From NCBI RefSeq assembly GCF_027943725.1, contig NZ_AP025696.1, positions 1,651,501 to 1,715,500 on the forward strand: a stretch of DNA of 64,000 nucleotides, written 5' to 3'. Below are positions 9,789-50,888 of this stretch, one piece after another. The stretch comes from Nitrosophilus kaiyonis (GTDB lineage Bacteria; Campylobacterota; Campylobacteria; Campylobacterales; Nitratiruptoraceae). The notes beneath the pieces are model-generated. The model ran no database searches. It was not told where the DNA came from and saw nothing but the letters and a program-made list of their open reading frames with translations. The translations under genes were made by a program, and so were the position numbers. The first letter of the stretch is position 1. Every line of letters begins with the position of its first letter.

Positions 9789-11483
9789 TTAGTCCTTATA
9801 CTCTAAAAGCATATTATATAAACTTCCGCCAGCTGGAACCATTGGCAATACATTTTCATATCTATCAATAATAACATCAATTATTGCTACTACACCTTTA
9901 CTTATTGCATCATCAAGAGCTTTATCAAACTCCTCTTTTGTTTCAACTCTATAACCTATACCACCAAAACTTTCAGCTACTTTAACAAAATCGGGCTGCA
10001 TTGAAAGGTCTGTTTCAGCATACCTTTTATCATAAAAAAATGTTTGCCACTGTCTTACCATTCCAAGATAGTGATTATTTAAAACAATATTTATAACTGG
10101 AAGCCTATATTCAACAGCAGTTATTAATTCTTGAATATTCATCAAAATTGATCCATCACCACTAAAATTTATAGATATCTCATCTTTTACACCTCTTTTT
10201 ACTCCCATAGCAGCAGGAAATCCAAATCCCATAGTACCAAGCCCACCGCTTGTAATTAACTCATTTGGTCTAGTAAATGGATAAAATTGGGCAGTCCACA
10301 TTTGATGCTGACCAACATCAGTTGATATTCTTGCTTTACCTTTTAGCTTTTCACCTACTCTTTGAATAACCCATTCAGGTTTTAACACCTCATCGCTATC
10401 TTCATATGTTAAAGGATGAAGCTCATCATATCTTTTTAATATTTCTCTCCAACTCTCATATCTATCTTTATCTACTTTCTCTTTTACTAATGGAAGCATC
10501 TCTTTTAAAACATTTTTTAAATCACCAACTATTGGATAATCTACATGTACAAGTTTTCCTATACTACTTGGATCTATATCAACATGTATAATTTGTGCAT
10601 ATTTGGCAAATTCACTTAGTTTTCCTGTAACTCTATCATCAAATCTTGGCCCTAAAGCAATTAAAAGATCTGCTTCGCTCATTGCCATATTAGCTGCATA
10701 TGAGCCATGCATTCCAACCATTCCAAGAAGCAAAGGATCATCATATCTTAAAACACCTCTTGCCATTAATGTTTCAACAGCTGGAATTCCCGTAAAACTT
10801 ACTAATTCTCTTACTAAATCTGCTGCACCACTTCTAACTATTCCGCCACCAAGATAAAAAACAGGTTTTTTAGCATTAGCTATAGCTTCTACTGCTTTTT
10901 TTATCTGTCTTTTGTTTCCTTTATATGTAGGTTTATAAGTTTCAAGTTTTATCTCATCTGGATAATTAAACTCTCCTATTTGAGCAGTAACATCTTTTGG
11001 TATATCCACATGAACTGGACCTGGTCTTCCACTTCTTGCAAGATAAAAAGCCTCTTTTAAAATTAAAGGAAGTTCATTTACATCTTTTACTAAAAAATTA
11101 TGTTTTGTACAAGGTCTACTAATACCAACAGCATCTATCTCTTGAAATGCATCTGTTCCAATCATAGAAATTGGAACCTGACCACTAATTACAACTAATG
11201 GTATCGAATCCATATAAGCAGTTGCAAGACCAGTTACTGCATTTGTAAATCCTGGTCCTGAAGTAACAAAAGCAACACCAACTTTTCCAGTTGCTCTTGC
11301 ATAACCATCTGCTGCATGGACTGCAGCTTGTTCATGTCTTGTTAATATATGTTGAAAATATTTATGTTTATAAATCTCATCATATACATTCATTATCGCG
11401 CCGCCAGGATATCCAAAAACTACTTCAACATTCTCTTTGCGCATAGCCTCAACAACCATACGCGCACCACTCATCTGCTCCAT
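9789..11483 (-). CDS. ilvB: Acetolactate synthase, large catalytic subunit
   Basis: Thiamine-diphosphate and FAD enzyme that condenses two pyruvates, or pyruvate and 2-oxobutyrate, in branched-chain amino acid synthesis. Visible features are VFGYPGGAIMNVYD with the following RHEQAAVHAADGYARATGKVG (the glutamate that activates ThDP), TSGPGFTNAVTGLATAY, and the C-terminal ThDP/Mg site GDGSILMNIQELITAVEY...NNHYLGMVRQWQ. I start at the second of two adjacent ATGs, five bases after AGGAG; a TTG upstream extends the frame 13 codons but lacks a ribosome site. ilvN follows directly. The MITE-like element lies just upstream and may affect expression. Confidence 0.95.
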   Translation of the reverse strand: MEQMSGARMVVEAMRKENVEVVFGYPGGAIMNVYDEIYKHKYFQHILTRHEQAAVHAADGYARATGKVGVAFVTSGPGFTNAVTGLATAYMDSIPLVVISGQVPISMIGTDAFQEIDAVGISRPCTKHNFLVKDVNELPLILKEAFYLARSGRPGPVHVDIPKDVTAQIGEFNYPDEIKLETYKPTYKGNKRQIKKAVEAIANAKKPVFYLGGGIVRSGAADLVRELVSFTGIPAVETLMARGVLRYDDPLLLGMVGMHGSYAANMAMSEADLLIALGPRFDDRVTGKLSEFAKYAQIIHVDIDPSSIGKLVHVDYPIVGDLKNVLKEMLPLVKEKVDKDRYESWREILKRYDELHPLTYEDSDEVLKPEWVIQRVGEKLKGKARISTDVGQHQMWTAQFYPFTRPNELITSGGLGTMGFGFPAAMGVKRGVKDEISINFSGDGSILMNIQELITAVEYRLPVINIVLNNHYLGMVRQWQTFFYDKRYAETDLSMQPDFVKVAESFGGIGYRVETKEEFDKALDDAISKGVVAIIDVIIDRYENVLPMVPAGGSLYNMLLEYKD

Positions 11484-11530
11484 CATATCTCCTAAGCTTT
11501 TCTTTTTAATTAAAAACGACAAAATTTATC

Positions 11531-11807
11531 TTATGGGCACCTCTAAAAACTATTTATAATTCATAGAAGGCAAAGATGGTGTAAGATTTGGATGAAAAAT
11601 TTTTGAGGTTTAGCCAAAGCTAAATCGATGAAATTTTTCGCCAAAGATTGTACCATATTTGCCTTCCCTTTGGGCTTTCATAAGTTTAGCCTTATACTTC
11701 GTTGTAGCTTTTTGACTATGCTATAGCATAGCCTGCAAAGCTACGCCTCCTCTAAGAACAACCTATAAAAGCTATAAGTTATAAATAGTTTTTAGAGGCG
11801 CCCTTAT
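11531..11807. mobile_element. MITE-like element with terminal inverted repeats and TTAT target duplication
   Basis: The element proper is 11535-11803 (269 bases). Its ends begin GGGCACCTCTAAAAACTATT and GGGCGCCTCTAAAAACTATT; the inverted repeats extend 32 bases with three mismatches. TTAT flanks both ends directly, as expected of a four-base target duplication. It encodes no protein. The interior folds into two large hairpins: GAAGGCAAA near 11567 pairs with TTTGCCTTC near 11664 around an inner TTTAGC/GCTAAA stem, and GTAGCTTT pairs with AAAGCTAC around the perfect palindrome CTATGCTATAGCATAG. Ends and target size resemble the IS5 group, but no transposase is present. It lies between ppx and ilvB and fills the whole gap. 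Confidence 0.82.
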
Positions 11808-11843: not shown

Positions 11844-12755
11844 TTATTTACTTAAAATTTTTTTACATCCTATAAGGGCTACCCCTTCTCTAACACCCTC
11901 ATCACTAACTAAAACTTCATCAAAATCTGCAGTTTTCATAATCTCTTTTAAAATCAGTACTCCTGGTATTATAAAATCTTCTCTACCCTTTCCAACAAGT
12001 TTTGCTCTTTCACTGCTGCTTAATTTTAAAAGTTTATTTAAAGCATTATCAATATCAGTTGGAAAAAGAACTGTTCCATTAACAATATCACTATTATAAT
12101 TTTGATAATCTAAATTTTTTTTAATTGCTGCAATTGTTGTAGGAGTCCCCCCAGTTGCCACAAATCTTTTAGGTTTTCCAAAAATCTCATATGTATCATT
12201 TAAAAATATTTTTATTTCTTCCATATATTTTTTAATACCAAAAACAATATTCTCTTTTGTTTTGAATCTTTGAGCAATTGTAACTATACCAAAATCAAAA
12301 CTTTTTGTAACTATCTCTTCTTTATTTTTTATAACAAATTCAACAGATGCACCACCAATATCACACATTAAAAACTTTTCACTGTTTAGGCCAAGTCTTG
12401 AAAGCAAATGCTCTACTGCTACTGCACTATAAAATCCTTCCATATCAGGATCAATTACTTCAATATCAATTCCAGTTTTTTCTTTTATATATTCAATTGC
12501 CTCTTTTTGATTTTTTGCTTTTCTAAATGCCGCTGTTGCTACAGCTTTTACACTCTCTTTTGAAAAATCTATTCTTTTTTGTATCTCTTTTATAGCTTTT
12601 GCAATTCTATCTAAAGCCTCTTTTGATATTTCAGAGCTTTTTTCAAGATTGTCAGCTGTCTGAACAACTTTTTCATATTCAAAAATCTTATCTAAGGAAT
12701 AACAATCTATCTGTATTGCTCTAAGAGAATTTGAGCCGATATCAATAGCAATCAT
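11844..12755 (-). CDS. ppx: Ppx/GppA family phosphatase (exopolyphosphatase-like)
   Basis: Member of the ASKHA-fold Ppx/GppA family, acting on polyphosphate or pppGpp. The N-terminal phosphate-1 motif AIDIGSNSLRAIQID, the MCDIGGASVEFV phosphate-2 motif near 137 and the ATGGTPTTIAAI segment near 200 are visible. Length 303 equals the short catalytic-core form without the C-terminal HD domain. The ATG overlaps the ilvA stop by one base (TAATG), so it is translationally coupled to ilvA. Which phosphate ester is the real substrate cannot be decided from sequence. Confidence 0.88.
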   Translation of the reverse strand: MIAIDIGSNSLRAIQIDCYSLDKIFEYEKVVQTADNLEKSSEISKEALDRIAKAIKEIQKRIDFSKESVKAVATAAFRKAKNQKEAIEYIKEKTGIDIEVIDPDMEGFYSAVAVEHLLSRLGLNSEKFLMCDIGGASVEFVIKNKEEIVTKSFDFGIVTIAQRFKTKENIVFGIKKYMEEIKIFLNDTYEIFGKPKRFVATGGTPTTIAAIKKNLDYQNYNSDIVNGTVLFPTDIDNALNKLLKLSSSERAKLVGKGREDFIIPGVLILKEIMKTADFDEVLVSDEGVREGVALIGCKKILSK

Positions 12756-50556: not shown

Positions 50557-50780
50557 GATTAATAGACGCAAAAAGTGGTGATATTGTAAAAATTGTTGGT
50601 TTTGAAGGTGAATGTGACGAATTTAAATGTAGATTATCAGCCATGGGTTTTATGATAGGTGATATAATAAAAGTATTAAACAAAGGTTTTTTTGGACCAA
50701 TACAAATAGAAGCAAATGGTGCAAAAATAGCTCTTTGCAGGGGACAAGCACAAAAAATACTTGTTAAAAAAGTTGAGTAG
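50553..50780 (+). CDS. FeoA-domain protein (second copy)
   Basis: A 75-residue SH3-like FeoA-domain protein: [61 protein letters not shown]. The SAMGxxxGDxI core matches feoA at 17.7 kb, but this copy has three Cys and no feoB beside it. It starts within the aspS stop (ATGA) and lies ahead of adk. It may be an FeoB partner acting from a distance or a regulatory FeoA-like domain. The terminal Val-Glu and TAG are written by the repeat word GTTGAGTAG, as in the other feoA. Confidence 0.85.
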
Positions 50781-50888
50781 TTAAGTAATTGAGGGGTTGA
50801 GTAGTTAAGTGGTTTTTATTTCATTACTACTCAACTATTTTAACCACTAAATAATAACAACTCAACCAATTTAACTTTTTTAACTAAT
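50770..50888 (+). repeat. Two-arm spacer between the feoA-like gene and adk
   Basis: C-poor words GTTGAGTAGTTAAGTAATTG and GGGGTTGAGTAGTTAAGTGG begin in the last codons of the upstream gene. The loop TTTTTATTTCATT follows, then CTACTCAACTATTTTAACCA and AACTCAACC. About 48 bases from GAGTAGTTAAGTGG onward match the spacer at 60.15 kb on the other strand with one difference. Confidence 0.85.

Follow-up and report, generated by a model that had tools for sequence, protein, structure and literature searches.

The window analysed here, a 64-kb stretch of the Nitrosophilus kaiyonis genome, carries between ppx and ilvB a 269-bp sequence (window 11535-11803) that contains no ORF of 80 aa or more (Table 1). 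Its inverted ends pair over 32 nt with three mismatches (35 nt at 89% with the flanks included), are the strongest inverted repeat of ≤400 bp in the whole window, and are flanked on both sides by TTAT; the coordinates and description given in the initial annotation, a gene-free sequence of 269 bases with such ends, therefore hold. The insertion sits in the spacer upstream of ilvB, within a ppx-ilvB synteny that is kept in 22 of the 22 genomes of the family. Comparison of this gap in relatives, proposed in the initial annotation as a check, revealed an empty site in three genomes of the same genus (G001-G003): their spacer reads uninterrupted as GATAAAATAAGATAAA, with one substitution in G001, and aligns with the window sequence from which the element and one TTAT have been removed. 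The search for further copies, proposed likewise, yielded a second, decayed copy elsewhere in the same genome (83% identity, worn ends), and another member of the genus, G004, has at least 12 places matching the element. Inverted repeats, a target duplication, short length, the lack of a transposase gene, an empty site and dispersed copies together identify the 269 bp, as far as sequence can tell, as a non-autonomous MITE with IS5-type ends inserted at TTAT. G002 and G003 also share a truncated relic whose position is orthologous in the two and lies just before a Memo-like gene (L006 1504-1610 and L008 1504-1615; MIREASVAGAFYPG); this is an old, vertically inherited insertion.

Table 1. Features of the MITE and its surroundings, in window coordinates.
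Feature	Position	Strand	Evidence
ilvB, acetolactate synthase large subunit, downstream neighbour	9789..11522	-	ORF; tblastn to relatives
Target-site duplication TTAT, left	11531..11534	.	sequence; single copy at the empty site of relatives
Left terminal inverted repeat GGGCACCTCTAAAAACTATTTATAATTCATAG	11535..11566	+	outer 16 bp common to IS5-family IS
Hairpin A, 99 nt: stem, GA/GA 2x2 loop, stem, tip	11567..11665	+	R1 91.9 bits; covariation; wobble
Central mini-hairpin CCCTTTGGG	11666..11674	.	CCCNNNGGG in most copies
Hairpin B, ~99 nt, inverted homologue of A, tip CTATGCTATAGCATAG	11673..11772	-	R2 80.8 bits; covariation; wobble
Right terminal inverted repeat GGGCGCCTCTAAAAACTATTTATAACTTATAG, written on the - strand	11772..11803	-	end pairing
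Target-site duplication TTAT, right	11804..11807	.	empty site of relatives
ppx, exopolyphosphatase family, upstream neighbour	11844..12755	-	ORF; synteny with ilvB

When one mismatch is tolerated, the end motif GGGCACCTCTAAAAAC is found in 35 of 150 relatives, up to 29 times per genome; the reversed motif, used as a control, is almost absent from the same genomes. Complete insertion sequences with the ends of the MITE were found in G029 (1270 bp, TTAA duplication, 343-aa IS5 transposase) and in G028 (1350 bp, 347-aa IS5 transposase). Both transposases contain the Pfam domains DUF772 and DDE_Tnp_1 and score 264 and 267 bits, respectively, with the NCBIfam model NF033581, against a cutoff of 140. 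In G076, an IS and MITEs have the variant end GGGCATCTCTAAAAAC in common. All three IS match the terminal 16 bp of the MITE with few changes, which bears out its assignment as IS5-like. These partners belong to other families of the order, and their transposase is present in only 6 of the 150 genomes searched. The genome of N. kaiyonis itself (G000), a single contig with 99.99% completeness, yielded no relative of it at E<=1e-20, contrary to the suggestion that a transposase elsewhere in this genome moves the element. Because no matching transposase was detected, the window copy is probably orphaned, and its partner may have been lost. IS5-family MITEs commonly, though not necessarily, have their partner transposase encoded in the same genome; an interior derived from the partner IS is likewise common and not obligatory.

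The structured interior described below is absent from the three IS5 elements with the ends of the MITE (L063, L064, and L105), and the autonomous IS5 and the MITE have only about 16 terminal bp in common. Autonomous IS were seen only for GGGCACC ends; the single-ended matches inspected for the ends TAGACTTC (c7) and AACCTGA (c3) contain ordinary genes, with no recognisable transposase and no complete IS among them. Short core-less elements with the same ends also exist (50-54 bp, and about 110 bp in G055), which means that transposition does not strictly depend on the core. Internal-deletion derivatives of 172, 181, 199, 210 and 50-54 bp (L069, L074, L086, L071, L073, L087, and L088) are without one or both hairpins and show apparent micro-homology at some joints.

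Folded as single-stranded DNA, the MITE reaches -56.9 kcal/mol, compared with -24.9 +/- 3.5 kcal/mol for shuffled sequences (z -9.3, 0/200). The interior forms two large hairpins, as described initially, and the 16-base palindrome noted at that time makes up the tip of hairpin B. An end-to-end alignment of 20 copies from several families, each of 260-269 bp, shows one layout common to all: an end of about 32 bp, hairpin A of 99 nt, the mini-hairpin CCCNNNGGG, hairpin B of about 99 nt, and the other end. The core, made up of hairpin A, the mini-hairpin and the inverted hairpin B, thus measures about 205 nt. Since the covariance model of A also matches B on the opposite strand (27-54 bits, in many copies), the two hairpins are homologous and inverted. 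Across families, the length of the hairpin unit is constant at about 99 nt and the unpaired features are fixed. Hairpin A has a GA/GA 2x2 loop (AGAT..AGAT), hairpin B has, when read inward, the loop GAGGC/AACGA, and both hairpins have the tip GGACTAGC-NNNN-GCTAATTC; the tip motif of A reads AGG..TA..NNAG.TA..TC.A. The interior of the MITE is a covarying core common to MITEs with other ends, rather than filler. The initial annotation missed it: its MITE reading stands with respect to the ends, the copies and the empty site, and is not supported with respect to a mover in the same genome or to a promoter or terminator brought by the element, since neither a promoter nor a terminator was found above chance in the window copy. 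In one copy (L130 1607-1729), the tip of hairpin B carries about 24 nt extra, which suggests that this tip tolerates insertions.

Between genera, the stem sequences have been largely replaced and the pairing has been retained. In nonredundant sets (<75% identity for A, <80% for B), 97.2% of the cells of hairpin A are paired, 35 of its 40 pairs have changed on both sides, and its covariation score is 0.787, compared with 0.208 for shuffled alignments and at most 0.193 for slid structures. For hairpin B, 90.6% are paired, both sides have changed at 31 of 38 pairs, and the covariation is 0.794 vs 0.217 for shuffled alignments; the first seed alignments gave the same picture for both hairpins. Taken together, the alignments show stems that covary, loops and tips that are conserved, and a core that is coupled to many terminal repeats, and they suggest that the fold of the core itself is preserved by selection.

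The sporadic non-Watson-Crick pairs, counted on the A-first strand, are unevenly distributed, with 59 G.T vs 9 A.C in hairpin A (p 4e-10) and 3 G.T vs 21 A.C in hairpin B (p 3e-4), although these counts come from related copies and are not fully independent; at 75% nonredundancy, the G.T:A.C ratios are 27:6 and 3:15, respectively. An A.C mismatch on one strand is a G.T wobble on the other. Because the asymmetry is opposite for A and B, each hairpin appears to tolerate wobble on the strand that reads inward, and this polarity argues both against a pure homogenisation of the arms and against a single transcript that needs both hairpins folded. A few fixed G.T pairs on the "wrong" strand of hairpin B run contrary to the polarity, and the asymmetry could arise in part from strand-biased mutation. 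We infer that selection maintains the fold of each hairpin on the strand that runs inward from the MITE end next to it, in which case the functional fold would be that of the + strand for hairpin A and of the - strand for hairpin B.

In a search of the order Campylobacterales that scored no more than 10 candidates per genome, the covariance model of hairpin A matches 135 of 399 genomes, in 39 of 87 genera; G004 alone has nine core-model matches. At least eight distinguishable end classes surround the same core with the same spacing: GGGCACCTCTAAAAAC, GAGACCACTGCACAGTATAA, AACCTGARTTCGACRG, GGCGACTCCAAGGGAATAAAC, GGGCTCCTTTATATAATATATA, ATTACYNCACC... (several variants), TAGACTTCCTTCACAAC, and GAACCCTCT..., the last of which is possibly related to the first. 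Two gammaproteobacterial end classes add to these eight. Single genomes can harbour two end classes (e.g., G088, G143, and G348), and the 4-bp duplications seen at insertions include TTAT, TTAA, TATA and TTCA. In f20, one-hairpin versions have TAGACTTCTTKCATAAC ends, and those in G028 have similar ends. All 36 of the two-hairpin copies lie outside long ORFs, between tandem (18), divergent (10) or convergent (8) gene pairs, and the 14 one-hairpin copies examined have no preferred orientation to the neighbouring genes (5 sense-tandem, 4 antisense-tandem, 5 mixed), both samples being small. In family f9, a solo hairpin with the GA/GA loop stands directly after the stop codon of guaA, with its fold antisense to this gene (around 1501-1599 of L180, L181, L183, L184, L186, L188, L189, L190, and L194); in L183, a duplicate of the guaA 3' end lies beyond the solo hairpin, as at the boundary of an island integration.

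In GTDB contigs, the tip pattern is found mainly in Campylobacterota, and also in Ca. Thiodiazotropha, other gammaproteobacterial MAGs and one Saprospiraceae MAG (Bacteroidota). Matches to the models confirm these occurrences (e.g., R2 83.9 bits at L236, 66 and 65 at L246; R1 68 at L234/L258); each gammaproteobacterial genome has 12-35 matches, and the Saprospiraceae MAG has 14 that are weaker. L246 and L230 are stretches of 271 bp whose 35-bp ends are perfect and include an apparent CTAG duplication. The hairpins outside the phylum have 58-65% GC, unlike most campylobacterial copies; simple contamination is therefore disfavoured, although some single MAGs may still be contaminated. No Rfam family matched the MITE or its core at gathering or permissive thresholds, no similar element was found on the plasmids searched, and the exact tip motif was not found in the viral contigs searched. 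The attC core sites (RYYYAAC / GTTRRRY on the folded hairpin) were not obvious in the consensus when it was inspected by eye.

We propose, with a probability of roughly 0.55, that the element is a non-autonomous MITE with IS5 ends from a superfamily defined by its core rather than by its ends, and that a strand-specific DNA fold of this core aids spread or survival. The core would act as a portable aid: it could draw both MITE ends together, or bind a host or transposase protein via the GA-rich loops and the tip motif, and the exchange of ends would let one core use different transposases. Since autonomous IS without the core and core-less short elements exist, the core is more likely to help with efficiency, persistence or tolerance by the host than with the basic cutting step. 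With less assurance, we regard DNA as the active form, either as an extruded cruciform or as a single-stranded hairpin during replication or transposition. A wider formulation, in which the structured interior is the unit under selection, a portable strand-specific DNA module whose fold is conserved in at least two and probably three phyla, which has repeatedly acquired the ends of different insertion sequences and, as a second-order mobile element, parasitises many unrelated transposases through end exchange, is put forward tentatively, as something rather less than an even chance.

The core could instead work as RNA, attenuating, processing or protecting the transcripts that contain it, or as a small RNA. 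Read-through from either side, or starts in either of the inverted ends, would then meet a correctly folded hairpin first, and the core would make intergenic insertions tolerable or even useful. This layout, the exclusively intergenic insertions, a tolerance of G.T that is typical of RNA helices, and tandem GA internal loops and conserved tips of a kind common among RNA motifs all fit such a function. We nevertheless consider it unlikely and favour DNA, because the two-hairpin copies are never inside long ORFs and occur with every arrangement of flanking genes, the one-hairpin copies are indifferent to the direction of neighbouring genes (n=14), and the solo hairpin of f9 folds on the strand antisense to guaA; the lack of a terminator and of an above-chance promoter in the window copy, and of a corresponding Rfam family, points the same way. 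Paired changes could also accumulate with no selection at all if template switching homogenised the arms of a quasi-palindrome, a known mechanism, leaving the core a passive passenger. The copies of 172, 181, 199 and 210 bp from which hairpins were deleted imply that replication slippage does occur at these structures. Homogenisation would, however, erase the GA/GA loop, the 3x3 loop of B and the C.A of the tip, which are kept in nearly all copies, and it sits poorly with the constant unit length and with G.T and A.C intermediates that are strongly asymmetric in opposite senses in A and B, so that we give this explanation only a small chance.

That the MITE is an internal-deletion derivative of an IS5 element with a functionless interior would suit its ends, target duplication and copy behaviour, but the three autonomous IS5 elements lack the core, and the same core is found with unrelated ends and in other phyla; this reading is very improbable. 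We assign still less weight to the possibility that a single-strand (Y1/HUH) transposase uses the hairpins as substrates and moves the core between MITEs, as in REP/REPIN-RAYT systems: two inverted, strand-specific hairpins with mismatches do resemble a REPIN in overall layout, yet neither the five genomes of the genus (G000-G004) nor G027 contain PF01797, and the insertions carry 4-bp duplications of the IS type.

In comparison with known systems, the element resembles IS5-family MITEs (IS5 group, YTAR-type 4-bp duplication) in its GGGCACCTCTAAAAAC ends, 4-bp duplications, multiple copies and lack of an ORF, and differs in that its interior is a covarying double-hairpin core, found with other ends too, and no remnant of an IS. 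MITE interiors are usually seen as inert leftovers of the parent transposon; in this element it is the ends that can be exchanged and the interior that is conserved, with an RNA-like covariation over great divergence. With REPIN/BIME, in which paired inverted REP hairpins are moved by RAYT, the element has in common two inverted imperfect hairpins, an intergenic location and a strand-specific fold, whereas its hairpins measure about 99 nt and its ends are of the DDE type with target duplications. Membership in REPIN/RAYT is disfavoured, as the genus of the window has no Y1 enzyme. Correia/NEMIS, BOX and ERIC repeats are palindromic, short and intergenic, and their transcripts can fold; the core-bearing MITEs are equally short, intergenic and palindromic. 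To our knowledge, each of these is a single sequence family limited to one or a few lineages; in the core, by contrast, the stems have fully diverged and the fold persists across families and phyla. Bacterial MITEs with possible RNA or host effects include MITEAba12 of Acinetobacter and the QMITEs of Coxiella (PMC6382973, PMC5896051), whose abstracts mention no covarying core across end families. In the open-licence literature on bacterial MITEs and structure, we found no description of the core, and its novelty is provisional: the kind of element is a MITE, and the new aspect would be a fold-conserved core with exchangeable ends.

If confirmed, these observations would give bacterial MITEs a defined functional core and explain how one small element exploits several transposase families. 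The GA loops, the tip motif and the strand polarity would then be a testable structure with which to identify whatever protein or process recognises it. The covariance model can also be used to annotate a large, apparently unannotated class of repeats in Campylobacterota and sulfur-oxidising Gammaproteobacteria.

Several further repeats were recorded. MITEs with a single hairpin, about 165 bp long and with TAGACTTCTTKCA(T/A)AAC ends, occur in many copies per genome (L185, L187, L191, L193, L196-L200, L204-L206, and L208), and no complete IS was found for these ends. In G028 (contig C31, L065 284-6044), eight one-hairpin elements of 161 bp with GGGAACCTCT ends follow each other in tandem every 800 bp; this may be a genuine array or an artefact of assembly. 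The window itself contains a second inverted repeat at 50758-50849, with 32-nt arms that are 81% complementary and a 28-nt loop.
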